Origin: Spinactinospora alkalitolerans
GTDB taxonomy: Bacteria; Actinomycetota; Actinomycetes; Streptosporangiales; Streptosporangiaceae
NCBI RefSeq assembly: GCF_013408795.1
Contig: NZ_JACCCC010000001.1
Coordinates: 1,240,001 to 1,304,000 of the forward strand
Direction of reading: 5' to 3'
DNA length: 64,000 nt
Shown here: in pieces, positions 8,385 to 50,263 of the stretch
How positions within the stretch are numbered: the first letter of the stretch is position 1
Layout: each line of letters starts with the position of its first letter
The notes under the pieces: model-generated
What the model was told of the DNA's origin: nothing
What the model saw: the letters and a program-made list of their open reading frames with translations, nothing else
Databases searched by the model: none
Program-made: the position numbers and the translations under genes

Positions 8385-8472
8385 TCCGGCTCCTTCGTCT
8401 CGTCTCGGCACGGCGTCATCGGTTCTTAACACGGCCACCCCTGGCCGGGGGTGCGGTCACAGGCTACGATGC

Positions 8473-8498
8473 TGCAAGCGCTTGCAGAAGCGCTTGCA
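8473..8498. promoter_or_regulatory. Tandem LacI-type operators upstream of the purine operon
   Basis: TGCAAGCGCTTGCA at 8473-8486 is a perfect 14-bp palindrome. A second copy of the AAGCGCTT core lies at 8488-8495, 12 bp on, within TGCAGAAGCGCTTGCA. The pair lies in the divergent region between the LacI gene and the first permease gene, so it can control both directions. Confidence 0.75.
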
Positions 8499-9400: not shown

Positions 9401-10185
9401 TCCTGAGACGCCCGCTGCTGTCCCTGCTGAGCGCGATTGCGTTCACCGTCATGCTCGGCCCGGTGGTGATCCTGCTGGGGGTGGCGTTCACCGCCGGCAG
9501 CACCCTGACCTTCCCACCCGAGGGCCTGTCCCTGCGGTGGTTCGCCGCCGCGGTGGAGTACCGGCCCTTCATCGACACGCTGGGCACCAGCCTCGTCGTC
9601 GCGGTCGCCTCCACGCTCGCCGCGCTGGTGCTGGGCGTGCCCGCCACGCTGGCGCTGCAGCGCGGGGCCGTGCCGGGGCGGGCGGTGGTCGAGAACCTGT
9701 TCATGACCCCGATCATCGTGCCCGAGCTCGTCCTGGGGCTGGCGCTGTTCCAGCAGTTCATGGTGGGGCTGCACATCACAGCGCTGGGGACGCTGATCAT
9801 CGGGCACACCGTCCTGCTGCTGCCTTATGCGGTCCGGGTCGTGGGCGCCTCGCTGGCCCTGGCCGACCCGAAGCTGGAGGAGGCCGCCCGCGGCCTCGGC
9901 GCCGGCCCGGTCCGCACCTTCTTCACGGTGACGCTGCCGGTCATGCGCCCCGGGATCATCTCGGCCACGATCCTGGCCTTCATCACCTCCCTCAACAACG
10001 TCCCGCTGTCGCTGCTGCTGACCGGCCCGGGCGTGGCCACGCTCCCGGTCGAGATGCTCAACTACGTGCAGTCCTCGTTCGATCCGGTGGTCGCGGCGGT
10101 CAGCGTCATCCTGCTGGCACTCAGCGTCGGGGTGGCACTGCTCACCGAGCGCCTCGTCGGGTTCAACAAGGTCTTCGGCCGCTAG
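9397..10185 (+). CDS. ABC transporter permease, spermidine/putrescine type (PotC-like)
   Basis: A 262-residue second membrane subunit that overlaps the previous gene at ATGA. It has a signal-anchor-like first helix and about six membrane segments. The coupling loop EEAARGLGAGPVRTFFTVTLP near its C-terminal half is the contact for the ATPase. With its partner it forms the heterodimeric channel of the importer. Confidence 0.85.
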   Translation: MILRRPLLSLLSAIAFTVMLGPVVILLGVAFTAGSTLTFPPEGLSLRWFAAAVEYRPFIDTLGTSLVVAVASTLAALVLGVPATLALQRGAVPGRAVVENLFMTPIIVPELVLGLALFQQFMVGLHITALGTLIIGHTVLLLPYAVRVVGASLALADPKLEEAARGLGAGPVRTFFTVTLPVMRPGIISATILAFITSLNNVPLSLLLTGPGVATLPVEMLNYVQSSFDPVVAAVSVILLALSVGVALLTERLVGFNKVFGR

Positions 10186-10212
10186 CGGCCGGGTTCAAGG
10201 AGGCATCGCGAA

Positions 10213-11229
10213 ATGACACCAGTAGTCCGGCTCGACGGCGTGGGGCGGCGGTTCGGCGGCGCGAAGAACGGCGTCGCGGCGGTCGACGGCCTCGACCTCA
10301 CCGTCGAGCGCGGCAGCTTCACGACGCTCCTCGGCCCGAGCGGGTGCGGCAAGACCACGACACTGCGCATGATCGCCGGATTCATCCGGCCCACCTCGGG
10401 GCGCATCCTGCTGGAGGGCGAGGACGCCACGAGCACGCCGCCCGAACGCCGCAACATCGGCATGGTGTTCCAGTCCTACGCCCTGTTCCCGCACATGTCG
10501 CTCACCGACAACGTGGGCTTCGGCCTGCGCGCCCGCAGGCTCCCCTCCGCCGAGGTCAGGCGGCGCGCGGGCGAGGCACTGGAGCTGGTGGGCCTGTCCC
10601 ACGCCGCCGACCGCAAGCCCGCCGAACTGTCGGGCGGGCAGCAGCAGCGGGTCGCCCTGGCCCGGGCCGTGGCCATCGAGCCGTCGGTGCTGCTGCTGGA
10701 CGAGCCGCTGTCCAACCTCGACGCCCGCCTGCGCGTGCAGATGCGCCGGGAGCTGCTGCGGGTGCAGCGCGAGACCGGGGTCACCGCCGTCCTGGTCACC
10801 CACGACCAGGACGAGGCGCTCCAGCTCTCCGACACCATGGTGATCCTCAACAGCGGCCGGCTGGAGCAGCAGGGCGACCCGCGCGCGGTCTTCCCCGCGC
10901 CGGCCAACCGCTTCGTCGCCGAGTTCCTCGGCTACGACAACTTCCCCGATGTGCCCGGCATGGGCCCGGTGACGATCCGCCCCGAGCACGTCGTGCTGTC
11001 CGCGGTCGGCACCGGCGGCGGAGCGGACGGCGCGGAGCTGGACGGCACGGTCACCGACGTCACCTACCAGGGCAGCCACTGCCTGGTCGGAGTGACGGCC
11101 GGATCGGACCGCGTCACCTGCGTGCACCCCGGCGACGAGTTCCGGCCGGGCGACGCCGTGCGCGTCCTGCTGCCCCGGCACCGCCTGGTGGAACTGGCCG
11201 ACGGCGCCGCGCCGGCGGGTGCGCGGTGA
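10213..11229 (+). CDS. ABC transporter ATP-binding protein (PotA/FbpC-like, with TOBE region)
   Basis: A 338-residue ATPase preceded by AAGGAGG. Motifs in order: Walker A GPSGCGKTTT, Q-loop FQSYALFPH, signature LSGGQQQR, Walker B VLLLDEP, and H-loop VTHD. A C-terminal beta-rich TOBE-like regulatory region follows (from about residue 250, VTIRPEHVV). It powers the two permeases encoded just upstream. The 27-bp gap before it is the only non-overlapping junction in this operon. Confidence 0.9.
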   Translation: MTPVVRLDGVGRRFGGAKNGVAAVDGLDLTVERGSFTTLLGPSGCGKTTTLRMIAGFIRPTSGRILLEGEDATSTPPERRNIGMVFQSYALFPHMSLTDNVGFGLRARRLPSAEVRRRAGEALELVGLSHAADRKPAELSGGQQQRVALARAVAIEPSVLLLDEPLSNLDARLRVQMRRELLRVQRETGVTAVLVTHDQDEALQLSDTMVILNSGRLEQQGDPRAVFPAPANRFVAEFLGYDNFPDVPGMGPVTIRPEHVVLSAVGTGGGADGAELDGTVTDVTYQGSHCLVGVTAGSDRVTCVHPGDEFRPGDAVRVLLPRHRLVELADGAAPAGAR

Positions 11230-12272
11230 GGCGGGTCGTCGCCGCCGTGTCCGGCGCCCTCGCCGCCACCATGGCACTGACCTCGTGCGCTCCCACCCGC
11301 GAGAACGACACCGACACCCTCGTCGTGAGCACCTTCGCCTTTGCGACCGAGGAGTTCATGCAGGTCATCGGTGAACCGTTCGAGGAGGCCACCGGGATCG
11401 AGGTGGTGCTGGACACCGGCAACAACGCCACCCGGCTGACCAAGCTCCGGATCAACAAGGAGCGGCCCGACACCGACGTCGTGCTCATCTCCGACTACTA
11501 CGCCCAGATCGGCAAGGAGATGGAGCTGTTCGAGAAGGTGCACCCGACCGCGGTGCCCGCCATGGCCGAGATCGCCCCGTGGGCCGTCGACCCCGACGGC
11601 TACGGCCCCGCCTACACCTTCCAGCTCCTCGGCCTGATGTACCGCACCGACACCGTGCGGCAGCCGCCCGACTCCTGGGACGACCTCTATGAGTCCGAGG
11701 TCCCCGGCGGATTCGCGCTGCCCGACATCTCGGTCTCGGCCGGCCCCATGCTGGTCCAGGCCACCGCCGAGGCCTACGGGACGGGCCCGGCCGACGTCGA
11801 CACCGGGTTCGAGCGGCTCGCCGGGATCGGCCCCGAGGCGCTGCAGTTCTACACCCGCTCCACCGAGCTCACCAGCCTCCTGGAGCGGGGCGAGGTCGCC
11901 ATGGCCCCTGGCCTGGACAACTTCGCGATGAACGCGGTGGAGTCCGGGCAGCCCATCGGATTCGCCGTGCCCGACGAGGGGCGCGTGATGACGGCCAACA
12001 CCGCCCAGATCGTGGCCGGCGCCCCGAACCGGGAGGGCGCGCAGGAGTTCGTCGACTTCCTGCTCGACCCGGAGGTCCAGTCCGAGGTGGCCGAGGTCAT
12101 CTACGACAAGCCGGTCCACCCCGACGCCGAGGTCACCGACCTGATGACCGACGTCGCGGGCGAGTCGGCCCTGGACCCGGCCGGGACCGGCTACCACCAG
12201 GGCGACCTGGAGCTCATCGCCGCCGAGCGCACGGCCTGGCTGGACCGCTTCGTGGAGGAGGTCGCCAGATGA
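11226..12272 (+). CDS. Substrate-binding lipoprotein of the purine-cluster ABC importer (PotD-like)
   Basis: The 348-residue protein begins at a GTG overlapping the ATPase stop (GTGA). It has a lipoprotein signal peptide with lipobox LTSC around residue 20, then a PotD-type extracellular binding fold. It would capture the ligand outside the membrane and deliver it to the permeases. Position directly upstream of nucleoside hydrolase points to a purine nucleoside or related ligand. That is inference, since the family is better known for polyamines. Confidence 0.85.
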   Translation: MRRVVAAVSGALAATMALTSCAPTRENDTDTLVVSTFAFATEEFMQVIGEPFEEATGIEVVLDTGNNATRLTKLRINKERPDTDVVLISDYYAQIGKEMELFEKVHPTAVPAMAEIAPWAVDPDGYGPAYTFQLLGLMYRTDTVRQPPDSWDDLYESEVPGGFALPDISVSAGPMLVQATAEAYGTGPADVDTGFERLAGIGPEALQFYTRSTELTSLLERGEVAMAPGLDNFAMNAVESGQPIGFAVPDEGRVMTANTAQIVAGAPNREGAQEFVDFLLDPEVQSEVAEVIYDKPVHPDAEVTDLMTDVAGESALDPAGTGYHQGDLELIAAERTAWLDRFVEEVAR

Positions 12273-13231
12273 GCACACCGGTCCTCGTCGACTGCGATCC
12301 CGGCGTCGACGACGCCATAGCGCTGCTGTACGCCCTGGCCTCCCCCGAGCTGGACGTGCGCGGCGTGACCACGGTCGCGGGCAACGTCTCCCTGGCCCAC
12401 GCCAACCGCAACGCCGCCCGGGTGCTCGACCTGGCCGGCGCCCGCGACGACCTGCCCCTCGTTCCGGGCCTGACCGGCCCCGTCGCCCGGCCCGCGCGCA
12501 TCCCCGACGAGCCGATCCACGGCGAGGGCGGCCTCGGCGGACTTGACCTGCCCGAGACGGGCCGGGTCCCCGTGAGCGGCCACGCCCCGGGGTGGCTGGC
12601 CGAGCAGGCGCTGGCCGCGCCGGGAGAGCTGACCCTGGTGGCGCTGGGCCCGCTGTCCAACGTCGCGGCGATGCTCACCCTGCACCCCGAGGCGGGGCCG
12701 GCGCTGCGCGAGATCGTCGTCATGGGCGGGGCCGCCCACTGCCAGGGCAACATCACCCCCGCCGCCGAGTTCAACTTCTTCGCCGACCCCGAGGCGGCGC
12801 GCCTCGTCCTGGAATCGGGGCTGCCGGTGCGGGTCGTGGGCCTGGACGTCACGCGGGCCGCGCTCTTCCCGCTGGAGCGGGCCGACCGGCTCGCCGCGCT
12901 GCCGGGAGCGGCGGGGGCCGCGGGGACGCTGCTGCGCGGATTCGTGCTGCGCTACCGCGAGCGCTTCGGCGTCGCCGCCGTCCCGGTGCACGACGCGCTC
13001 GCCGTCGCCGCCGTCACCCACCCCGGCCTGCTCGACTTCGAGAGCGGGGCGGCCACGGTCGAGTGCGCCGGAGAGGTCTCCCGCGGCGCCCTGGTCGCCG
13101 ACCTGCGCCGACCGGAGCGCACGCGCGCGGTGCGCGTCGCCCTCGGGGTCGACGCCGAGGGCTTCACCCGGCTGCTCGCCGACCGCCTCGCCGGCTACGC
13201 CGACCCGACCGCGACCACCGACCGACCATGA
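12269..13231 (+). CDS. Inosine/uridine-preferring nucleoside hydrolase (IunH family)
   Basis: A 320-residue cytoplasmic hydrolase overlapping the binding-protein gene at ATGA. The calcium-binding signature DCDPGVDDA places aspartates at residues 8, 10, 14 and 15, as in characterised nucleoside hydrolases. VHDALAVA near residue 240 supplies the conserved histidine and aspartate. It splits ribonucleosides into base and ribose. It shares an operon with a transporter and adenine deaminase, so adenosine-type nucleosides are plausible substrates. Confidence 0.9.
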   Translation: MSTPVLVDCDPGVDDAIALLYALASPELDVRGVTTVAGNVSLAHANRNAARVLDLAGARDDLPLVPGLTGPVARPARIPDEPIHGEGGLGGLDLPETGRVPVSGHAPGWLAEQALAAPGELTLVALGPLSNVAAMLTLHPEAGPALREIVVMGGAAHCQGNITPAAEFNFFADPEAARLVLESGLPVRVVGLDVTRAALFPLERADRLAALPGAAGAAGTLLRGFVLRYRERFGVAAVPVHDALAVAAVTHPGLLDFESGAATVECAGEVSRGALVADLRRPERTRAVRVALGVDAEGFTRLLADRLAGYADPTATTDRP

Positions 13232-40185: not shown

Positions 40186-40868
40186 GTTACCGGAATATTA
40201 CGGACCGGATTCGGGAGTGTCAATAGCGTTAATTGCTCGCTTCGCGAATCCGCAGGTGAGATATTCCAGATTAGATTAATGATCATCGTCGGGTGATATA
40301 AGATCATTGCCGACGCGCTTTCGCCGATCTTGACGTTGCGTTTTCGCCTCGGCCCCGGGATGGAATGGAGTAGGCGTGCGGGTGGGCCCCCTCGACCTCG
40401 ACCCCCTGGGGCCGGGGAGCGTGCACCATCGCCCAGTCACCGCGGGCTTGCGTCCTTCGGCTGAGATTCACACCCCCCGATGGTCGAGGTTGAAACTCAC
40501 GTTGGCGTTGTGGGGGTTATCGCAGCGTTTTCAGGCCCGATAAGGTCGAGATCGCCGGGAGAACCACTGCAGAACGGATACCCGAGCAGCCGACCCGAGC
40601 CTGCCCCTGCTCCTGCTTTTTCGGTGCGGGCCACCCGCCGCTCGGCGGCGGACAAGGCCGCACAGCGCACCTTGGCCGCCTGACCACCGATCACTCGACG
40701 CGACTCCTGCAGACCTCGGTATTCGCGTTGTCTGTGTGCCGCGTCCGGTGGCTACGGCCTGATGTGCGGCCTCGTGGTCGGCGGCCCGGCCGCCTTCGGG
40801 CCGCCGCGGTGTCCCTATGATGATCCCTCGCCCGGTCTGCGCAGGTCCGGGCGTTGAACGGAGAGATC
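40186..40868. other. Intergenic region with unusually A/T-rich left part
   Basis: 40186-40370 is far less GC-rich than the surroundings and likely holds promoter elements. 40440-40700 has short open frames ending in a peptide ADKAAQRTLAA that recurs in altered form near 60861. No intact gene is supported. TATGAT at 40816-40821 is a plausible -10 for the M20 peptidase gene. Confidence 0.4.
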
Positions 40869-42011
40869 ATGGCGATTGACGGACGCGACGCCCACGACCT
40901 GCTGCGGGATCTGATCGCCCTCGACACCGTCGCGGCGGGGGAGGGGGCCGCGGCGGCCCTGACCGCCGGGCTGCTCGACGACGCGGGGCTGTCCACCCGC
41001 ACGGTCGGCTGGGAGCCGGGCCGGGAGCAGGTCGTGGCGGTCACGCCCGAACCGGCCGAGACGCCTCCCCTCACCTTCACCGGGCACCTGGACACCGTCC
41101 CGGCCGACGCCCGCGACTGGCGCACCGACCCCTGGCTGGCCGAACTCGACGGCGACCACCTGGTGGGGCGCGGAGCCAGCGACATGAAGTCGGGCGTCGC
41201 GGCGTTCCTGGCCGCGCTGCGCGACCACCGGTCCCGGCCGCACCGCTGCCGCGGGGTGCAGGTCGTGCTGACCGCTGGGGAGGAGACCGGCTGCGACGGG
41301 GCCGCCCGCATCCCCGCCGACCTGCTCCGCCCGGGCGGCTGGCTGCTCGTCGGCGAGCCCACCGCCAACCGCGTCGTCCCGGCGCACAAGGGCGCGCTGT
41401 GGCTGCGGCTGGCCGCGCGCGGGGTCTCGGCGCACGGATCGGCCCCCGAACTCGGCCGCAACGCGGTCGTCGCGCTGGCCCGGGCCGCCGTCGCGCTGCA
41501 CGACGCCGCCGACTGGCCCGAGGCCGAGGGGTTCGGCGCCGTGACGGCGAACGTGGGGCTGCTCAACGGCGGCACACAGCCCAACGTGGTGCCCGACGCG
41601 GCGGAACTCCTGCTGGACCTGCGGACCGTCCCCGGCTCCGGGCCGGAGGAGCTGCGTTCGCGGGTGCGCGCGATCGTCGGTCCCGACGTCGAGATCGCCG
41701 ACCTGGTGGACCTGCCCATGGTGAGCACCCCGCTGGACTCGCCGCTCGTCGCGGCCGTGCGCGCCGTGCTGCGCGACGCGGGGCTGGCCGACGAGCCGTC
41801 GGCGCCGGCGCGCTTCTTCACCGACGCCTCCGTCCTCGCCGGGGCGCTGGACGCCGCGGGAACGGTGGTGCTGGGTCCCGGGGAGCCCGGCCAGTGCCAC
41901 GTCGTGGACGAGTGGTGCTCGCTGACCCGCCTGGAACAGGCCGTGGACGTCTACGGGCGGCTGCTCGACTCCTGGTGCTCGCCCGGTTCGGACCTGCTCG
42001 ACATGGGCTGA
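40869..42011 (+). CDS. M20-family metallopeptidase (ArgE/DapE-like)
   Basis: A 380-residue cytoplasmic enzyme. ATG at 40869 follows GGAGAG. Zinc-site motifs: FTGHLDTVP, GRGASDMKSG, TAGEETGCDG and VGEPTANRV; a dimerisation lid domain occupies about residues 175-285. The late GPGEPGQCHVVDEWC supplies the last histidine ligand. These enzymes deacylate N-acyl amino acids or cleave dipeptides; the exact substrate cannot be told. Its last 61 bases overlap the 3' end of the opposite-strand LacI gene. Confidence 0.85.
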   Translation: MAIDGRDAHDLLRDLIALDTVAAGEGAAAALTAGLLDDAGLSTRTVGWEPGREQVVAVTPEPAETPPLTFTGHLDTVPADARDWRTDPWLAELDGDHLVGRGASDMKSGVAAFLAALRDHRSRPHRCRGVQVVLTAGEETGCDGAARIPADLLRPGGWLLVGEPTANRVVPAHKGALWLRLAARGVSAHGSAPELGRNAVVALARAAVALHDAADWPEAEGFGAVTANVGLLNGGTQPNVVPDAAELLLDLRTVPGSGPEELRSRVRAIVGPDVEIADLVDLPMVSTPLDSPLVAAVRAVLRDAGLADEPSAPARFFTDASVLAGALDAAGTVVLGPGEPGQCHVVDEWCSLTRLEQAVDVYGRLLDSWCSPGSDLLDMG

Positions 42012-43027
42012 GGCCCCGTCTGCCCGCCCGCCCCGGTGCTCTGGCGCACGACCAGGCTCGGGGCGAGCGCGATGTGGGCGGCGGCGGCGCCCCCCTGCGC
42101 CGCGGTCGCCAGCAGCCGGACCGCCTCGGCCGCGATCCGGTCGCGGGGCTGGCTGATCGTGGTGAGGGCGGGCTCGAACAGGGCGGCGAAGTCGATGTCG
42201 TCGTAGCCGGTGATCCGGATGTCGCCCGGCACGTCCACCCCGTGGTCCCGGCAGGCCCGCAGGGCGCCGAGCGCGATGAGGTCGTCGGCGCACACGATCG
42301 CCTCGGGCAGGTCGGCGTCGCCGAGCAGGACGGCGGTCGCCCGCCGGCCCCAGTCCACGGAGTACTCGCCCAGCAGGATCCAGTCCGGGCGGGTGCGCAT
42401 CGCGAGCCGCTGCGTCTGCAGCCGGAAGCCGGCGAGCCGCAGTTCGGTCGAGGAGTTCGTCAGCGTGGAGCTGATGAAGGCGGCCGAGCGGGCCCCGGTC
42501 CCGTGCAGGTGCTCCAGCAGCAGCCGCATGGACTCGTGGTCGTCGACGCCCACCCAGTCGGTGTTGGTGCCGGCGACGTGCCGGTCGAGCTGGACCAGGG
42601 GGATCGCGGCGGCCGCGGCCTCGACCGCCGGCGTGCTGCGGGTGCCGTGGCACGGGCTGATGATGATGCCGTCGACCTGCCGCGCGGCCAGGGAGCGCAG
42701 GTGCCCCTCCTCCACCGAGGTGTCCTGCCGAGAGTCGCACAGGAACAGTTGCCGGCCCTCCGCCTGCAGCACGTGCTCCACGCTCTCCACCAGCGAGGTG
42801 AAGAACGGGTTGGCGATGCTCGGGACGACCATCCCCACGGTGTCGGTGCGGCTGCGCCGCAGCGCGCTGGCGATGGTGTTGCCCGAGTAGCCGAGCTCCC
42901 GGGCGGCGGCGTCGACGCGCCGGCGGATCTCGTCCGAGACCGGGCGGGCGCCGGAGAGCGCCCGCGACACGGTCGCCGTGGAGACGCCGGCCTTGGCCGC
43001 TACCTGCGCGATCGTTATGCGATGCAA
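41951..43027 (-). CDS. LacI-family repressor of the BtpA-kinase-ABC operon
   Basis: A 358-residue regulator. Upstream ATG/GTG options give a long poor N-terminus, whereas TTG at 43027 follows AAGGAAGG by six bases and leads straight into HRITIAQVAAKAGVSTATVSRALSG. An operator-like palindrome overlaps this start codon. The effector domain is complete (GIIISPCHGTRSTPA, ITGYDDIDFA). The 3' end overlaps the convergent M20 peptidase gene by 61 bp. It is divergent from the eight-gene operon beginning at 43161. Confidence 0.85.
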   Translation of the reverse strand: MHRITIAQVAAKAGVSTATVSRALSGARPVSDEIRRRVDAAARELGYSGNTIASALRRSRTDTVGMVVPSIANPFFTSLVESVEHVLQAEGRQLFLCDSRQDTSVEEGHLRSLAARQVDGIIISPCHGTRSTPAVEAAAAAIPLVQLDRHVAGTNTDWVGVDDHESMRLLLEHLHGTGARSAAFISSTLTNSSTELRLAGFRLQTQRLAMRTRPDWILLGEYSVDWGRRATAVLLGDADLPEAIVCADDLIALGALRACRDHGVDVPGDIRITGYDDIDFAALFEPALTTISQPRDRIAAEAVRLLATAAQGGAAAAHIALAPSLVVRQSTGAGGQTGPQPMSSRSEPGEHQESSSRP

Positions 43028-43035
43028 TCGGTTGC
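43024..43035. promoter_or_regulatory. Operator overlapping the LacI start codon
   Basis: GCAATCGGTTGC is a 12-bp near-palindrome covering the TTG start codon of the LacI gene. It shares GCAATCG-TT with the site at 43134-43145, consistent with autoregulation. Confidence 0.55.
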
Positions 43036-43133
43036 CTTCCTTGGTGACATGCAGACTCCCCCGTAACAGCAGGTTTACAGCATAGGTATTGACCGCCTCG
43101 TTGGAGTGCCCGTACATTCTGGGTACTTTCTCG

Positions 43134-43145
43134 GCAATCGATTAC
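43134..43145. promoter_or_regulatory. Operator upstream of the BtpA-kinase-ABC operon
   Basis: GCAATCGATTAC lies 16 bp before the BtpA-like start codon and matches the site at 43024-43035 in its left half and centre. It is likely bound by the divergent LacI protein, blocking transcription start. Confidence 0.55.
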
Positions 43146-43160
43146 ATCAGCGAGAGGTTC

Positions 43161-44036
43161 ATGAGCAGCCATCAGCAGCCGGGTGTCTTCCCGCCGAAGC
43201 CCGATGCCGTCCGCGAACTCTTCGGGACGTCGCCGGTGATCATCGGGGCCGTGCATCTGCCGCCCCTGCCGGGCAGCCCGCACTACCGCGGGCGGTCCCT
43301 CGACGAGATCTCCCGCTTCGCGATCGAGGAGGCCGCCGCCTACCATGCAAACGGTTGCCACGGCGTGATCGTCGAGAACCACTGGGACATCCCCTTCCTC
43401 AAGCCCGGCGAGCACGGGTACGAGACCGCCGCCGCCATGGCCGTCGTCACCGCGCGGGTGCGCGAGTCCGCTGCCGCGGACCCGGCCGGGGGCGTCGGCG
43501 TGAGCGTGCTGTCCAACGCGGCGGAGTGCTCCATCGCCTCGGCGCACGCCGCCGGCGCCGGCTTCGTCCGCGTCAACCAGTGGGCCAACGCCTACGTCGC
43601 CAACGAGGGCATCATCGAGGGCCGGGCCGCCCGCGCCACCCGCTACCGGCACCGCATCGGCGCCGAGGGCGTCCGGGTCTTCGCCGACGTGCACGTCAAG
43701 CACGGCTCGCACGCCATCGTCGCCGACCGCACCCTCGCCGAGCAGACCGAGGACGCGGAGTTCTTCGACGCCGACGTGCTCATCGCCACCGGCTCGCGCA
43801 CCGGCGACGCGGCGTCCCCCGACGAGGTCGAGGGCATCAAGGCCCACACCCGGCTCCCGGTGGTCATCGGCTCCGGCATCGACGCGGACAACATCGGCGG
43901 CCTGCTGCCCGCCTGCGACGGCGTCATCGTCGCCTCATCGCTCAAGGACAACGGCCGCTGGTGGGGCCGGGTGGCCCCGGAGAAGGTCCGCGCGCTGGCC
44001 GCGGCCGCCGAGCGGGCAGGAGCCGACCTCCGGTGA
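43161..44036 (+). CDS. BtpA/SgcQ-family TIM-barrel protein
   Basis: A 291-residue protein starting at ATG behind GAGAGG. The BtpA family motifs are VIIGAVHLPPLPGSPHY, GVIVENHWDIPF and EGIIEGRAARATRYR. Members are predicted TIM-barrel enzymes of uncertain reaction: SgcQ lies in an E. coli carbohydrate operon and BtpA affects photosystem I in cyanobacteria. Here it is first in an operon with a PfkB kinase and a ribose-type importer, so it probably acts on a phosphorylated sugar or ribosyl compound. That is inference. Confidence 0.85.
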   Translation: MSSHQQPGVFPPKPDAVRELFGTSPVIIGAVHLPPLPGSPHYRGRSLDEISRFAIEEAAAYHANGCHGVIVENHWDIPFLKPGEHGYETAAAMAVVTARVRESAAADPAGGVGVSVLSNAAECSIASAHAAGAGFVRVNQWANAYVANEGIIEGRAARATRYRHRIGAEGVRVFADVHVKHGSHAIVADRTLAEQTEDAEFFDADVLIATGSRTGDAASPDEVEGIKAHTRLPVVIGSGIDADNIGGLLPACDGVIVASSLKDNGRWWGRVAPEKVRALAAAAERAGADLR

Positions 44037-44962
44037 TCCTGTTCTGCGGTTACGCCAACGTCGACGTCGTGGCGCGCGTCCCGGGGCTGCCGGGCGGCGG
44101 CGACCGGGTGCACGCCGCGGCGATCGAGTACCGGCACGGCGGGATGGGCGCCAACGCCGCCGTCGCCGCCGCCCGCATGGGCGCCGACGCGGCCTTCGGC
44201 GGCGCCGTCGGCACCGCACCGATGGACCGGGAGTTCCTCGCCGCGCTGGCCGCCGACGGCGTCGACACGGACTGGTGCCACACCGACGCCTCCGTGGCGA
44301 CGGCGATCGTCCTCGTCACCCCCGACGGCGAGCGCGCCATCATCAGCCGCGACGACGGACTGGACCCGGCGCGCATCGCCGCGGGCGTCCGGCGGCTGGC
44401 CGCGCGCGGCGGCGGCTGGCTCTACCTGGACGGCTACCGCTGGCCGCACGCCGCAGACGCCCTGGCCGAGGCCGACCCGGCCGGGACCGTCCGGCTCTTC
44501 GTGGACCTCGACGGCTGCGCCGACCCCGACGCCGCCCGGGTCGCGCTCTCGTGCGCCCGGCACGCCGTCGCCGGGCGCGCCCAACTGGAGTCCCTCTTCG
44601 GGGCCACGGGCGAGACCCTGTCCGCGCTCGCCCGGCGGCACGACGTCGTCCTGCTCGCCACCGACGGGGCGAACGGCTGGCGGCTGGCCGAGCCCGGCGG
44701 TCGGGTCGAGCACGGGGCGGCGCTGCCCGTCGACGCGGTCGACGCCACCGGGGCCGGGGACTGCTTCTCCGGCGCCTACCTCGCCGGTCTCGACGAGGGC
44801 CTGGCCCCCGTCGCGGCCGCCGGGACCGCGGCCGCCGCCGCGGCCCTGTCCTGCACCGTCACCGGTGCCCGCGGCGCCCCGGACCGCGGTGCCGTCGAGG
44901 CGCTGTCGGCCGGGGCGGCCGACCGCCCCACCCGGACCACACCCATTCGGAGCACACCATGA
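44033..44962 (+). CDS. PfkB-family carbohydrate/nucleoside kinase
   Basis: A 309-residue kinase starting at a GTG that overlaps the BtpA-like stop. The ribokinase-type N-terminal signature is GGMGANAAVAAARMGAD, and the catalytic C-terminal motif is DATGAGDCFSGAYLAG. Early GYANVDVVARVP matches the sugar-binding edge. It would phosphorylate the imported ligand with ATP. Fusion or exchange with BtpA-type enzymes is known in such operons, but the precise sugar is not evident. Confidence 0.88.
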   Translation: MILFCGYANVDVVARVPGLPGGGDRVHAAAIEYRHGGMGANAAVAAARMGADAAFGGAVGTAPMDREFLAALAADGVDTDWCHTDASVATAIVLVTPDGERAIISRDDGLDPARIAAGVRRLAARGGGWLYLDGYRWPHAADALAEADPAGTVRLFVDLDGCADPDAARVALSCARHAVAGRAQLESLFGATGETLSALARRHDVVLLATDGANGWRLAEPGGRVEHGAALPVDAVDATGAGDCFSGAYLAGLDEGLAPVAAAGTAAAAAALSCTVTGARGAPDRGAVEALSAGAADRPTRTTPIRSTP

Positions 44963-45972
44963 CCAAGAACGCGGGGATCGCCGCGCTGAGCGCCATGCTG
45001 CTGCTGGCCACCGCGGCCTGCGACGCCGAGGTGCGCGAGCAGCAGGCGGCCGAGGAGCAGGCGGCGGCCCAGGGCCCGCCGGCCCCCACGGACGTGCCCA
45101 CCGCCTGCGAGGTCGAGGGCGAACCCGTCGAGATCGGCCTGGTCACCATCAACCTTCAGGCCCTCTTCTTCAACCAGATCATCACCGGAGCCCAGCGCGT
45201 CGCCGACGAGGCGGGGGCCGACCTGCAGGTGGTCAACGGCGACGACGACTCCGTCACCCAGGCCAACGCGATCAACGACCTGGTGGCGAGCGGCGTGGAC
45301 GCGGTCGTCGTGGACGCCGTCGACACCGAGGGCATCAGGCCCGCCGTCCGCGGCGCCGACGCGGCCGGCGTGCCGGTCGTGGCGGTCGACGCCACCGTCG
45401 ACGACCCTGCGGTCTCCACCCAGGTCGGCGTGGAGAACGCCGAGGGCGGCGCGCAGATCGGCGAGCACCTGCTGGAGGAGTCCGGCGGCGAGGGGACCGT
45501 CCACGTCGTCAGCGCCCTCAACAGCACCGTCCAGTTGGAGCGCCAGGAGGGCTTCACCGAGGCCGTCGAGGACGGCGGCATGGCCGCGGGAACGGTGGTG
45601 GACGGCCGCAACATCCAGGAGGACGCCCAGACCGCGGCCGAGAACCTGCTCACCGGCGACCCCGACACCGAGTACGTCTACGCCACCGGGGAACCGGCCC
45701 TCATCGGCCTCGCCGCGGCCGTGCGCGGCCAGAACGCCGCCGACCGGGTGACCGTCGTGGGCTGGGACATGTCGGAGCCGGCCGTCGACGGGCTGCGCGA
45801 GGGCTGGATCAGCGGCGTCGTCCAGCAGAACACCTTCGAGTTCGGCTACGCGTCCATGGCCTCCGCCATCCGGCTGGCCTGCGGCGAGGAGGCCCCTGAG
45901 GACATCCCCGTCCCCATCCAGATCGTCACTCCCGACAACGTCGAGGACTACCTCTACTACCTGGAGAAGTGA
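44959..45972 (+). CDS. Ribose-type ABC substrate-binding lipoprotein (RbsB-like)
   Basis: A 337-residue protein overlapping the kinase at ATGA. The lipobox is TAAC at about residue 21. A Glu/Ala-rich linker precedes the Peripla_BP_4 domain (LQALFFNQIITGAQRVADEAG, INDLVASGVDAVVVDAVD). It would bind a pentose, a cyclic sugar or a nucleoside-like molecule. The late GWDMSEPAVDGLREGWISGVVQQNTF is typical of RbsB-type binders. Confidence 0.88.
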   Translation: MTKNAGIAALSAMLLLATAACDAEVREQQAAEEQAAAQGPPAPTDVPTACEVEGEPVEIGLVTINLQALFFNQIITGAQRVADEAGADLQVVNGDDDSVTQANAINDLVASGVDAVVVDAVDTEGIRPAVRGADAAGVPVVAVDATVDDPAVSTQVGVENAEGGAQIGEHLLEESGGEGTVHVVSALNSTVQLERQEGFTEAVEDGGMAAGTVVDGRNIQEDAQTAAENLLTGDPDTEYVYATGEPALIGLAAAVRGQNAADRVTVVGWDMSEPAVDGLREGWISGVVQQNTFEFGYASMASAIRLACGEEAPEDIPVPIQIVTPDNVEDYLYYLEK

Positions 45973-45974
45973 CC

Positions 45975-46730
45975 ATGACCGACGAAACGCCGCTGGTCGA
46001 ACTCCGCGGCATCCGCAAGTCCTTCGGGGCGGTCAGGTCGTTGCGCGGCGTCGACCTGACCCTGGGGCGCGGCGAGGTCCTCGGCCTCGTCGGCGACAAC
46101 GGGGCCGGCAAGTCCACCCTGATGAAGGTCCTGGCCGGCGCCGTCCAGCACGACGAGGGCGAGATCCTGGTCAGCGGGCGCAGCGTGCGCTTCGCCAGTC
46201 CCGCCGGCGCGCGGCGCGAGGGGATCGGCATCGTCTACCAGGACCTCGCCCTGTGCGACACCCTCGACGTGGCGAGCAACCTGTTCCTGGGCCGCGAACC
46301 CCGCAAGGGCCCCTTCCTGGACCGGGCCGCCATGCACGCCCAGGCCGCCCGGATCCTCGACGACCTGCACGTCCGCGTCTCCTCCACCCGCCAGGAGATC
46401 GGCCACCTCTCCGGGGGGCAGCGCCAGACCGTCGCCATCGCCCGCGCCGTCTCCACCCGGCCCGACGTCCTCATCCTGGACGAGCCCACCGCCGCGCTGG
46501 CCGTCGCCGAGGTGGAGTCGGTGCTGCGACTGATCGGCGACGTCGCGGCCAGGGGCGTCGGCGTCATCCTCATCACCCACCGCCTCCAGGACCTGTTCCG
46601 GGTCTGCGACCGCATCACCGTCATGTACGAGGGGTGCAGCGTCGACGACGCGCCGATCTCCGACCTCGACATCGAGAGGCTCGTCGCGATGATCACCCGG
46701 TCCGACACCGACAAGGAGGTCCGCTCGTGA
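45975..46730 (+). CDS. Ribose-type ABC ATPase, single-domain
   Basis: A 251-residue ATPase (Walker A GDNGAGKST, signature LSGGQRQT, Walker B LILDEPTAAL, H-loop THR). Most ribose-type ATPases are tandem two-domain proteins of about 500 residues; this is a one-domain form like FrcA, so it must homodimerise. ATG at 45975 follows GGAGAAG; a GTG six bases earlier would overlap the binding-protein stop. Confidence 0.88.
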   Translation: MTDETPLVELRGIRKSFGAVRSLRGVDLTLGRGEVLGLVGDNGAGKSTLMKVLAGAVQHDEGEILVSGRSVRFASPAGARREGIGIVYQDLALCDTLDVASNLFLGREPRKGPFLDRAAMHAQAARILDDLHVRVSSTRQEIGHLSGGQRQTVAIARAVSTRPDVLILDEPTAALAVAEVESVLRLIGDVAARGVGVILITHRLQDLFRVCDRITVMYEGCSVDDAPISDLDIERLVAMITRSDTDKEVRS

Positions 46731-47770
46731 CCGCGGACACCGCCCCCGGCGTCTCCACGGCGACCGGCGCACCGCCCCGGCCCCCGGGCCGCACGGCGGC
46801 CCTGTGGCAGGAGGCCAACAAGGCGACCCTGCTCATGGTCGCCGTCACGGTCGCGCTCTTCGCCCTGTTCGGCTTCGCGTCGCCGACCTTCCTGACCTTC
46901 GACAACCTCTCGAACCTGGCCACCCAGATCGCCCCGGTGGTGATCGTCGGCGTCGCGATGACCTTCGTCATCACCTCGGGGCAGATCGACCTGTCCGTGG
47001 GCTCCACCATCGCCTTCGTCGCGGCCGTCAGCGCCGAGCTGCTGGTCTCCGGGCTCGACTCCTCCCTGGTGATCGTGATCGGCATCCTCGCCGGCGCCTT
47101 CTGGGGGCTGGTCAACGGCTGGCTGTCGGCCTACAACCGCATCCCGCCGTTCGTGGTGACGCTGGCGACCATGTCGGTCATCCGCGGCATCGCGCTGCTG
47201 CGCACCGAGGGCTTCTCCGTGCCGATCGACAACCGGCTGCTGCTCGCCAGGATCGGCAACGCCGAGTTCCTCGGCTTCTCCGCCCTGGCCTGGATCGCGC
47301 TGGCCATCACCGTGCTCGGCGCGGTGCTGATGCACAAGACCCGCTTCGGCCAGTACGTCACCGGCATCGGCTCCCAGGAGGAGTCGGTGCGCCGGGCGGG
47401 GGTCAACACCCGCCGGATCAAGATGCTCGCGCTCATGCTCACCGGGATGGCCGCCGGCGTCGCCGGCCTGCTCATCGCGGCGCGGCTGGGCTCGGGCTCG
47501 GCGAACTCGGCGCAGGCGTTCGAGCTGACCGTCATCGCGGCGGTCGTGCTCGGCGGCACCGACCTCTTCGGCGGGCGCGGCACGATCGTCGGGACGGTCA
47601 TCGGCGCCGTCATCACCGGGGCGATCGCCAACGGCCTCACCCTGCTCGGCATGAGCCCCTTCCTCACCCCGATCATCACCGGGTGCGTGCTCATCCTGGC
47701 GATCTGGATCAACCTGCGCGGGCGCGACATCGGTCAGCTCGCCGCCAGGATGCTGGGGAGGAGCGGGTGA
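46727..47770 (+). CDS. Ribose-type ABC permease (RbsC-like)
   Basis: A 347-residue membrane protein, GTG start overlapping the ATPase stop and preceded by AAGGAGG. It has about eight to ten hydrophobic helices; the segment VGVAMTFVITSGQIDLSVGS and the loop VRRAGVNTRRIKM are diagnostic for RbsC/XylH-type permeases. It completes a full importer with the two preceding genes. Confidence 0.9.
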   Translation: MTADTAPGVSTATGAPPRPPGRTAALWQEANKATLLMVAVTVALFALFGFASPTFLTFDNLSNLATQIAPVVIVGVAMTFVITSGQIDLSVGSTIAFVAAVSAELLVSGLDSSLVIVIGILAGAFWGLVNGWLSAYNRIPPFVVTLATMSVIRGIALLRTEGFSVPIDNRLLLARIGNAEFLGFSALAWIALAITVLGAVLMHKTRFGQYVTGIGSQEESVRRAGVNTRRIKMLALMLTGMAAGVAGLLIAARLGSGSANSAQAFELTVIAAVVLGGTDLFGGRGTIVGTVIGAVITGAIANGLTLLGMSPFLTPIITGCVLILAIWINLRGRDIGQLAARMLGRSG

Positions 47771-48879
47771 GCGGCGCCGTCGGGGTCGGCACCGTCACGG
47801 GCGTGATCGGCAGCGACCGGCTCGGGCTCACCCTCCCGCACGAGCACCTGGTCAACGATCTGCGCTCCGCCGTGGTGCCGCCGACCCGGCCCGAGCGGGC
47901 GTTCCTCACCGACGCCGCGGTCACGCCGGAACTGGCGTGGCTGCTGCGGGAGGACCCCTACGCCTGCCGCGACCACTGCGTGCTCGACGACGTCGACGCG
48001 GTCGTGGCCGACCTCGCGGTCTTCGCCGAGGCCGGCGGGCGCAGCGTCATCGACCTCACGCCGCCCGGCATCGGCCGCGACCCGGCGGCGCTGCGCGGGA
48101 TCGCCGAGCGCACCGGGCTCAACGTCATCATGGGCTCCGGGTGGTACCTCCAGCGGTTCCACCCGGCCCACCTCGCCAGGACCGGCGTCGACGACCTCGC
48201 CGCCGAGCTCGTCGCCGAGTTCCGCGCCGAGGGGCCCGGGGCGGCCGGCCCCGGCGTCATCGGCGAGATCGGGGTGTCGCCGGACTTCACCGCCGACGAG
48301 CACACCGCCCTGCGCGCGGCCTGCGCGGCCCAGCGGGAGGTCGGCGTCCCGCTCTTCGTGCACCTGCCCGGGTGGCGGCGCCGCGCCTTCGAGGTGCTCG
48401 ACATCGTCCTGGAGGAGCAGGGCGTCGATCCCGGCGCGGTCGTGCTGTGCCACATGGACCCCTCGGGGGAGGACCCCGTGTACCAGCTCGCCGTCGCCGA
48501 ACGCGGGGCGTGGCTGGAGTTCGACATGGTCGGCATGCCGTTCCGCTACCCGGGGGAGGGGCAGTCGCCGGCGCCGGCCGACACCGCCCGAGCCGTGCGC
48601 ACGCTCGTCCGCGCCGGCCACGCCGGCCGGCTGCTGCTCAGCCACGACGTCTTCCTCAAAAGCATGCTGACCCGCCACGGCGGCAACGGCTTCGGCTACG
48701 TTCCGGTGCTCTTCGCCGACCGGCTGCGCGGGCTGGGCGTGGACGACGCCACCGTCGACCTGCTCCTGGCCGGCAACCCGCGGCGGCTCTTCGAGGCCGC
48801 AGCCCGCGGCCGCGGCGCACGACCCGCGGCCGACCCGACAACGAACAACGCGACCATCGCGAGGAAGGAGCCGTCGTGA
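47767..48879 (+). CDS. Phosphotriesterase-family amidohydrolase (PHP/lactonase-like)
   Basis: A 370-residue enzyme starting at a GTG overlapping the permease stop. Metal ligands follow the PTE pattern: LPHEHLVND (first two histidines), GEIGVS (bridging carboxylate in place of lysine), HLPGW, LCHMDPSGED and LLSHDVFLKS (final aspartate). PTE relatives hydrolyse lactones or phosphoesters, or have no assigned substrate. Within a sugar operon a lactonase or phosphoester hydrolase fits best; I cannot choose. Confidence 0.85.
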   Translation: MSGAVGVGTVTGVIGSDRLGLTLPHEHLVNDLRSAVVPPTRPERAFLTDAAVTPELAWLLREDPYACRDHCVLDDVDAVVADLAVFAEAGGRSVIDLTPPGIGRDPAALRGIAERTGLNVIMGSGWYLQRFHPAHLARTGVDDLAAELVAEFRAEGPGAAGPGVIGEIGVSPDFTADEHTALRAACAAQREVGVPLFVHLPGWRRRAFEVLDIVLEEQGVDPGAVVLCHMDPSGEDPVYQLAVAERGAWLEFDMVGMPFRYPGEGQSPAPADTARAVRTLVRAGHAGRLLLSHDVFLKSMLTRHGGNGFGYVPVLFADRLRGLGVDDATVDLLLAGNPRRLFEAAARGRGARPAADPTTNNATIARKEPS

Positions 48880-49622
48880 GCCGCGTCCTCATCGCCGGCG
48901 AGAGCTGGATGACCGAATCGACCCACGTCAAGGGGGTCGACTCATTCACCGTGCACTCCTACGTGGAGGGGGTGGGGCCGCTGCGCGACGCGCTGGAGGC
49001 CGCGGGGCACACCGTCACCCACCTGCCCGCGCACCTGGTCCCCGCGCGGTTCCCCGGCGACGCGGAGGCGCTCTCGGCCTACGACCTGGTGGTGCTCTCC
49101 GACATCGGGGCCAACTCCATCCAACTCGACCCCGCCGTCCTCGAGCGCTCCGAGCGCGGCGAGGACCGCCTGGCCAACCTCGCCGGATGGGTCGCCGAGG
49201 GCGGTGCGCTGATGATGATCGGCGGCTACCTGTCCTTCACCGGCTTCCAGGCCAAGGCCGCGTTCCGGCAGACCCCGATCGCCCCGGCCCTGCCGGTGGA
49301 GCTGCTGCCCGACGACGACCGGGTCGAGCTGCCCGCCGGAGCCGACCCGGCCGTGCTCGACGCCGGGCATCCCGCCCTCGGCGGCGCCGGCGGGCAGTGG
49401 CCGCACCTGCTCGGCTACAACCGCGTCGCCGCCCGCGACGGCGCCGCGACGCTGGCCACGATCAACGGCGACCCGCTCGTCGTCGTCGGCGAGCACGGCC
49501 GGGGGCGCACCGCGGTGTTCACCTCCGACTGCTCGCCGCACTGGGCGCCGCCCTCGTTCTGCGAGCAGTGGAGCGGCTACGGGCGCCTCTTCGACGGGCT
49601 GGTGCGATGGCTGGCGAACTGA
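48876..49622 (+). CDS. DUF1355/GATase1-like protein
   Basis: A 248-residue protein, GTG start overlapping the PTE-like gene and preceded by GGAAGGAG. It resembles the putative cytoplasmic amidotransferase family of Salmonella STM3548 (GESWMTESTHVKGVDSF, YDLVVLSDIGANSI, MMIGGYLSFTGFQ, FTSDCSPHW). The nucleophile-elbow position reads GGYLSF with no cysteine, so normal glutaminase chemistry is unlikely. It may instead bind or isomerise a sugar-like ligand; unproven. Confidence 0.75.
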   Translation: MSRVLIAGESWMTESTHVKGVDSFTVHSYVEGVGPLRDALEAAGHTVTHLPAHLVPARFPGDAEALSAYDLVVLSDIGANSIQLDPAVLERSERGEDRLANLAGWVAEGGALMMIGGYLSFTGFQAKAAFRQTPIAPALPVELLPDDDRVELPAGADPAVLDAGHPALGGAGGQWPHLLGYNRVAARDGAATLATINGDPLVVVGEHGRGRTAVFTSDCSPHWAPPSFCEQWSGYGRLFDGLVRWLAN

Positions 49623-50263
49623 CCGCGGCCTCGCGCAGCGAGCGGCTGCTCGCCGCCACGCGGGGCGCGCTCGCCGACGCCGCGGCGGCGCGGCTGATCA
49701 CCGAGATCACCGAGGGGCGGGTCGACGAGGTCGCCTACGCGCGCTACCTGCTCATCGAGGAGGGGTTCGTGCATGCGGCGGCCCGCGTGCTGGGCGCGGC
49801 CGTGTGGCACGCGCCGAGCTGGGAGGCGACGGTCGGGCACGCGCGCTCCCTGCACGGGCTGGTCACCGAGCAGCGGGCCTATTTCGCCCGGGCGCGCGCG
49901 GACTGGCCGGTCCGCGCCGAGCCGGGCCCGGCGGGGCTGCGGCAGGCCGAGGGGCTGGCGGAGCACGTGCTGCGCGGCGCGGCCGACCACGGCTACCCGG
50001 CGATCGTCACCGCGATGTTCGCCGCCGAGCACCTCTACCTCACCTGGTGCTCGGCCGCCGCCGCCTCCGGCGCGGCGCGCCCGGCCACGGTGCAGAACTG
50101 GGTCGACCTGCACGCCCGCGCCCCGTTCACCGACCAGGTGGCCTTCCTGCGGGCCGAGGTCGACGCCCTGCCCGCCGACGTCGGCGACTCCGCGCTCGCG
50201 GAGTGGTTCACCGGCATGCTCCGCGAGGAGATCCGGTTCCACGACGCGGTGTACCTGGACTGA
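49607..50263 (+). CDS. TenA-like protein (thiaminase-II fold)
   Basis: A 218-residue all-helical protein starting at an ATG 16 bp inside the preceding gene. TenA features: FVHAAARVLGAAVWHAP, AAEHLYLTWCSAA and a C-terminal WFTGMLREEIRFHDAVY with the conserved glutamates. The usual Asp/Cys pattern of TenA_C is not clear, so it may belong to the TenA_E group acting on thiamin-breakdown pyrimidines or an unrelated amine. It is the last gene of the eight-gene operon. Confidence 0.8.
   Translation: MAGELTAASRSERLLAATRGALADAAAARLITEITEGRVDEVAYARYLLIEEGFVHAAARVLGAAVWHAPSWEATVGHARSLHGLVTEQRAYFARARADWPVRAEPGPAGLRQAEGLAEHVLRGAADHGYPAIVTAMFAAEHLYLTWCSAAAASGAARPATVQNWVDLHARAPFTDQVAFLRAEVDALPADVGDSALAEWFTGMLREEIRFHDAVYLD

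Follow-up and report, generated by a model that had tools for sequence, protein, structure and literature searches.

The 64,000-nucleotide stretch of the Spinactinospora alkalitolerans genome analysed here (contig NZ_JACCCC010000001.1, positions 1,240,001 to 1,304,000; hereafter the window) contains an eight-gene operon on the + strand (43161-50263), which we read, with a probability of slightly over one half, as a pathway under LacI control that uses an N-linked riboside supplied from outside, i.e. a modified or damaged nucleoside-like compound. This reading rests on the exchange of genes between sister operons and on a sequence comparison of the substrate-binding proteins (SBPs) of the importer. 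The genes encode, in order, a BtpA/SgcQ-family protein, a PfkB-family kinase, an RbsB-type SBP, a single-domain ABC ATPase, a CUT2-type permease, a phosphotriesterase-family protein (PTE), a GATase1_like (DUF1355) protein and a TenA-fold protein. Searches with Pfam and NCBIfam models matched the first seven products to BtpA, PfkB, Peripla_BP_4, ABC_tran, BPD_transp_2, PTE and GATase1_like, while the TenA-fold protein reached no model in either collection. Given that six of the gene junctions are 4-nt overlaps (NTGA) and the seventh, between DUF1355 and TenA, is a 10-nt overlap, the eight genes are, as judged by layout, one transcription unit. An earlier note on this DNA had listed the same eight overlapping genes and a single-domain ATPase; all eight genes were recovered with seven reading-frame overlaps, and the ATPase has one ABC domain in 253 aa.

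Sister loci were gathered through TenA and DUF1355 searches, and 42 DUF1355 loci were tabulated, 26 of which have a full importer (SBP, ABC ATPase and permease). The same gene set was detected in other Nocardiopsaceae and further Actinomycetota, on plasmids of Roseivivax, Paracoccus, Ponticoccus, Rhizobium, Shinella, Aureimonas and Agrobacterium vitis, and in Pantoea and Klebsiella; R. johnstonii 3841 has its locus, with an ortholog of the window SBP, on pRL9. The operon thus spans phyla, and a restriction to the genus of the window is ruled out. Both PTE and DUF1355 are present in 26 of the 26 full-importer loci from Actinomycetota, rhizobia, roseobacters, Pantoea and Klebsiella. Loose linkage of the homologs across genomes would have counted against the claim of a coherent pathway, and this tight association answers it. 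Furthermore, the order of the genes differs among loci and PfkB at times lies on the opposite strand, suggesting that the association is more than a single frozen inherited block. It should be noted that the plasmid loci were chosen by similarity and over-represent rhizobia; the least biased set is a class sample of 395 genomes. In that sample DUF1355 is uncommon (16 genomes), and the SBP searches returned nine proteins above 450 bits, every one of them from such an operon; the next scored 319 bits and the others 185 or less. These comparisons indicate that the genes form a genuine operon, conserved widely among bacteria, which would encode a coherent pathway. The earlier note had proposed an undescribed pathway; a search of open-licence papers on BtpA, PTE, TenA, DUF1355 and LacI regulon topics found no description of the gene set or of such a pathway, in keeping with that proposal.

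The most informative feature of the sister operons is the exchange of one enzyme for another in the same setting. Of the 26 full-importer loci, 19 have BtpA and five a nucleoside hydrolase (L050, L051, L053, L055 and L056; the Streptomyces-type hydrolase of L053 lies at 10130-11071), whereas no locus has both and two, from Frigoribacterium, have neither. The hydrolase that takes the place of BtpA is a PF01156 member (339 bits) nearest to UriH/RihA; it is lacking from the operon of the window and present in five sister operons. BtpA is always accompanied by PfkB (20/20 loci, with L041 counted), as are three of the five hydrolase loci, so that BtpA plus PfkB or a nucleoside hydrolase is found in 24 of the 26. 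When mapped on the DUF1355 tree, the BtpA label requires four changes, at least three of which are forced by well-supported branches; judged by this tree, BtpA and the nucleoside hydrolase have been swapped more than once. The simplest reading of this exchange is that both would do the same job, release of ribose, on the same imported ligand. Since the place of BtpA can be taken by a nucleoside hydrolase while operon and importer stay the same, a nucleoside-like substrate is favored, with an N-glycosidic rather than a C-glycosidic bond. C-nucleosides such as pseudouridine were rejected as the main substrate, as a nucleoside hydrolase is not known to cut them. Elsewhere in the window a further PF01156 nucleoside hydrolase gene (287 bits; 12269-13231, + strand) lies one gene downstream of an ABC ATPase with a TOBE domain (10213-11229).

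The importer falls short of the ribose equivalog cut-offs in all three components (RbsB 91 of 337, RbsA 211 of 745 and RbsC 189 of 398 bits). The ATPase is not of the two-domain type that marks ribose importers, and its annotated orthologs are of similar length. The SBP family profile retrieved the Klebsiella pneumoniae structure 5HSG with an e-value of 1e-135, and the predicted SBP model (pLDDT 83) superimposes on it with a Z of 32.7 at 41% identity; this protein was crystallised empty. In 23 orthologs drawn from operons with BtpA, with the hydrolase and with neither, 25 SBP positions are identical; as these positions were chosen for their conservation, they show sameness between the three kinds of operon and not a measured pocket. 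The only intermediate SBP relative in the class sample, from locus L100 (6976-9936), lies beside a divergent gene of the Q_salvage family, which scores 86 bits against about 190 for other members and is directly upstream of the related importer. Characterised members of this family cleave queuosine 5'-phosphate, and it is possible that the L100 importer takes up another nucleoside. Its SBP shares the ALNS, QxxR, DG, TGEP and WD motifs with the operon SBPs and differs from them at IN.Q..F and Q289, as would be expected of a common ribose side combined with a different base side.

BtpA matches PF03437 over the whole domain with 214 bits (cut-off 30) and TIGR00259 with 192 (cut-off 153), but at 179 bits lies below the cut-off of 400 for NF045918, the equivalog for the photosystem I biogenesis protein BtpA. 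Its profile recovers the phosphate-binding half of TrpA (6e-6), CutC, ThiE and PRAI, and this, together with the strict link to PfkB, suggests a phosphorylated substrate. E72, N73, H74, R137, D176, H178, K180, H181, G237-S238-G239 and A258-S259 are invariant. A predicted model built from three sequences is a TIM barrel that matches ThiE, KDPG aldolase, HisF and PRAI with Z of 16-17; the model is weak (pLDDT 65), so these matches count only as 'phosphate-binding TIM barrel'. More generally, distant BtpA genes (in L077, L089, L090 and L096) keep the company of a sugar kinase or regulator and a Zn peptidase. The PfkB protein is nearest to ribokinases, with a distant likeness to fructoselysine 6-kinase. 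In Klebsiella pneumoniae 176 (L099, 11977-13350) the PfkB gene of the operon is apparently interrupted by an IS1 element.

PTE has all six metal ligands of its family (HxH, a bridging Glu/Lys, two His and an Asp) as H25, H27, E167, H199, H229 and D294, which are invariant across 23 orthologs, and the protein belongs by its PF02126 match to the phosphotriesterase family. It is nearest to 3K2G (6e-102) and to Pmi1525, with 3RHG matched at 5e-85, followed by 9EFA (3e-45), annotated as phosphotriesterase-related. The mammalian PTE relative PTER, for which 3K2G was likewise named as the nearest structure, hydrolyses N-acetyltaurine, an amide (PMC11374699). The TenA-fold protein was recognized through its own profile, which matches TenA structures down to Bacillus subtilis TenA, with Streptococcus pneumoniae 1Z72/2A6B the nearest. 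In a profile alignment to 2QCX Ala138 and Glu139 correspond to Cys135-Tyr of the B. subtilis protein, so that the thiaminase II cysteine is missing; both residues are invariant in 15 sequences, and in the gapless alignment Glu139 is one position off from the place of the cysteine, where TenA_E enzymes, which are deformylases, have a glutamate. TenA occurs in 15 of the 26 loci, a hydantoinase/carbamoylase-type Zn hydrolase in five, never together with TenA, and an M20 hydrolase alone in six. This exchange of TenA for carbamoylase-type and M20 hydrolases suggests that it performs amide hydrolysis in the operon.

DUF1355 has no conserved cysteine, with at most 10 of 25 sequences bearing one at any column; the claim that it lacks a catalytic cysteine thus holds, and by this conservation pattern it is not a glutamine amidotransferase of the usual type (class I). 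Some DUF1355 relatives adjoin LacI, PfkB and a nicotinamide-phosphoribosyltransferase-like (NAMPT-like) gene, and NAMPT-like genes also lie near DUF1355 in L054 and L061; these neighbors again put DUF1355 beside N-ribosyl chemistry. A Rhodococcus rhodochrous BX2 plasmid (L074, 11519-31559) combines genes for a NAMPT-like phosphoribosyltransferase, PRPP synthase, a luciferase-type monooxygenase, flavin reductase, an amidohydrolase, DUF1355, LacI, PfkB and formate dehydrogenase, and looks like a cluster for N-heterocycle breakdown via ribosylation. A different conserved context is seen on haloarchaeal plasmids (L037, L038 and L073), where DUF1355 accompanies a RidA-type deaminase and a zinc alcohol/glucose dehydrogenase, with a PIG-L deacetylase in L038 and L073. 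In pTiA47a (L042, 7992-16747) DUF1355 lies between conjugation genes and a hydantoinase/SIS/fructoselysine-kinase cluster that possibly serves opine use.

Taken together, the favored pathway would begin with import of the N-riboside by the SBP, ATPase and permease, as indicated by their families. PfkB would then phosphorylate the riboside at the 5' position, and BtpA would split the phospho-riboside into ribose 5-phosphate and an aglycone; in the nucleoside-hydrolase variant cleavage would come first, with PfkB acting afterwards as a ribokinase. Amide or ureide bonds in the aglycone may then be hydrolysed by PTE and by TenA (or its carbamoylase-type or M20 stand-in), and DUF1355, the weakest assignment, could act somewhere on an N-ribosyl or amide intermediate. 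The earlier note had offered the same order of import, phosphorylation and dismantling with three kinds of substrate, among which the replacement of BtpA by a hydrolase beside the same importer favors the nucleoside-like one; the thiamin-derived one is disfavored, as TenA lacks the cysteine and gives way in sister loci to carbamoylase-type or M20 enzymes, and the sugar-linked amine is retained as a rival.

Several observations weigh against the N-riboside reading. In the two Frigoribacterium loci the importer, PTE, DUF1355, TenA and M20 are accompanied by neither BtpA nor a local hydrolase; neither of these genomes has BtpA and one is also devoid of any PF01156 match. The identical SBP positions were selected for conservation and need not line the pocket, the Q_salvage link comes from a single locus (L100), and the BtpA structure model is weak. 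DUF1355 also occurs with no ribose gene nearby, in haloarchaea and on pTi A47a. Finally, the distant BtpA genes named above have FGGY kinases, DeoR regulators and M29 or M42 peptidases as neighbors, and Escherichia coli BtpA (SgcQ) sits with PTS genes. Given this company, BtpA may act on sugar phosphates or sugar-phosphate conjugates other than ribosides.

Rather unlikely, in our estimate, is that the operon serves catabolism of a sugar-amine conjugate, such as a glycosylamine, an Amadori or Heyns product or an N-acyl amino sugar, with PfkB phosphorylating the sugar, BtpA breaking a sugar-nitrogen or carbon bond and the hydrolases freeing the amine. The many amide hydrolases of the set, the pairing of BtpA elsewhere with sugar kinases and Zn peptidases, the distant fructoselysine 6-kinase likeness of PfkB and the pTi A47a DUF1355 gene 6 kb from fructoselysine kinase and SIS genes would all suit it. 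However, PfkB is far nearer to ribokinases, no SIS deglycase is among the annotated operon genes, and a UriH/RihA-type hydrolase in the BtpA slot beside the same SBP would be unexpected for Amadori compounds. Uptake of ribose or a simple pentose, with the remaining genes as extras, is improbable: although the SBP is RbsB-type, the kinase nearest to ribokinase and the LacI protein RbsR-like, the SBP is far from the RbsB cut-offs, and PTE, DUF1355 and an amidohydrolase, kept in 26/26 loci, and BtpA or a nucleoside hydrolase, kept in 24/26, would be pointless for ribose.

We consider two further explanations very improbable, and about equally so. Salvage of thiamin or its pyrimidine, with TenA as the key enzyme, would draw on the TenA fold and on the action of TenA_E enzymes on formylaminomethylpyrimidine (PMC10470507), yet an alanine replaces the thiaminase cysteine, TenA is missing from 11 of the 26 loci, where other amidohydrolases take its place, thi genes are not in the operons, and the importer is of the sugar/nucleoside type. 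Use of phosphonates or organophosphate esters is suggested by the proximity of PTE to 3K2G and to Pmi1525, reportedly a methylphosphonate esterase, whose activity PTE would share. Against this, the annotated loci showed no phn genes, importer and kinase are both of the sugar type, and PTER, which is also near PTE, is an amidase.

Returning to the N-riboside pathway, a bolder version, which we put forward tentatively and think doubtful as a whole, is that BtpA/SgcQ is a new family cleaving 5'-phospho-ribosides (or sugar-phosphate conjugates) in place of nucleoside hydrolases, that DUF1355 is a cysteine-free N-ribosyl amide hydrolase, and that the operon encodes an undescribed modified-nucleoside route in actinobacteria, rhizobia, roseobacters and enterobacteria. 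Both BtpA/SgcQ and DUF1355 are common families, with relatives of solved structure or names that go back decades, yet we found no reaction for either, and there is a real chance that this operon will assign BtpA its first. The sister operons with a hydrolase for BtpA and the same SBP narrow the question of function to one direct assay. If the reading is true, it brings to light a way of using a nutrient that rhizobia, roseobacters and enterobacteria share.

The regulatory region is consistent with control by the divergent LacI-family gene. For this gene TTG 43027, with a AAGGAAGG ribosome-binding site upstream, is preferred over ATG 43117 and is the likely start. Three LacI-type operators with the common core GCAANCGNTTGC lie at this divergent start, two exact and one with a single mismatch, whereas 0.15 exact core matches are expected by chance per shuffled 64-kb window; the matching operators described previously are thus confirmed. 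The pair formed by O1 and O2, about 110-120 bp apart, recurs in L025, L026 (with a third copy), L062 and L064, and the Frigoribacterium loci L027 and L028 have an operator pair 99 bp apart. A perfect LacI-type palindrome, CTGCAAGCGCTTGCAG, at 8472-8487 of the window is probably the operator of another regulator. The M20 deacylase gene, convergent with the LacI gene, is a probable accessory member of the system, and an M20 gene adjoins or lies near the operon in L025, L027, L028, L029, L032, L035, L036, L050, L051, L053, L055, L056, L060, L064 and L099.

Table 1. Genes and sites of the operon region, in window coordinates.
Feature	Position	Strand	Evidence
M20 (ArgE/DapE-type) deacylase, 3' end overlapping the lacI end	40854..42011	+	Pfam PF01546 4e-29
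LacI-family repressor, divergent from the operon	41951..43027	-	Pfam LacI and Peripla_BP_3
Operator O1 ATGCAATCGGTTGCCT, overlapping the lacI start	43022-43037		core exact; near-identical site at the same place in L025 and L064
Sigma-70-like promoter TTGACC-18-TACATT, between O1 and O2	43089-43118	+	consensus match only; 1 found vs 0.1 expected
Operator O2 CGGCAATCGATTACAT, in front of btpA	43132-43147		core with one mismatch
BtpA/SgcQ-family protein, TIM barrel; proposed phospho-riboside-cleaving enzyme	43161..44036	+	PF03437 2.9e-63
Operator O3 ATGCAAACGGTTGCCA, inside btpA	43345-43360		core exact; also in L026
PfkB-family kinase, ribokinases nearest	44033..44962	+	PF00294 1.1e-37; ribokinases the best PDB relatives, 3e-22
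Substrate-binding lipoprotein-like protein (RbsB-type SBP), ortholog of PDB 5HSG	44959..45972	+	PF13407 2.2e-47
Single-domain ABC ATPase, 253 aa	45969..46730	+	PF00005 2.1e-34
CUT2-type permease	46727..47770	+	PF02653 1.2e-43
Phosphotriesterase-family (PTER/Pmi1525-like) metallohydrolase (PTE)	47767..48879	+	PF02126 1.3e-46
GATase1_like (DUF1355) protein without catalytic cysteine	48876..49622	+	PF07090 3.1e-91; STM1381 3SOZ 2e-64
TenA-fold protein without thiaminase cysteine (Ala138/Glu139)	49613..50263	+	profile matches to PDB 1Z72/2A6B and B. subtilis TenA 2QCX

Among known systems, the E. coli sgc operon likewise places a BtpA-family protein, SgcQ, in a sugar-type operon, together with a Zn-peptidase-like gene. 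The sgc operon differs in its PTS uptake and DeoR-type regulation and is not known to contain PTE, DUF1355 or TenA; we know of no established function for SgcQ either. Salmonella STM1381 (3SOZ) and STM3548 (2GK3) are full-length members of the DUF1355 family, but their neighbors differ, a related E. coli plasmid having PfkB, an alpha/beta hydrolase and an APC permease. Mammalian PTER resembles the PTE of the operon in that both are near 3K2G and in that its metal residues H26, H28 and E169 match H25, H27 and E167 by motif. The K. pneumoniae SBP KPN_01730 (5HSG, EFI-511059, APO) is an ortholog of the SBP of the window, and the whole set is present, in a different gene order, at the K. pneumoniae locus L099. 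Pathways that combine RihA/UriH with RbsK are approached by the five variant operons, which carry such a hydrolase beside the same importer type, and in three cases PfkB as well, whereas the operon of the window has BtpA instead, plus PTE, DUF1355 and TenA. Closest in the proposed logic is pseudouridine catabolism by PsuK and PsuG, in which a PfkB-family kinase acts first and cleavage then yields base and ribose 5-phosphate; however, no member of the PsuG family turned up among the genes of the operon, BtpA is a TIM barrel with no relation to it, and the operon adds amide hydrolases.

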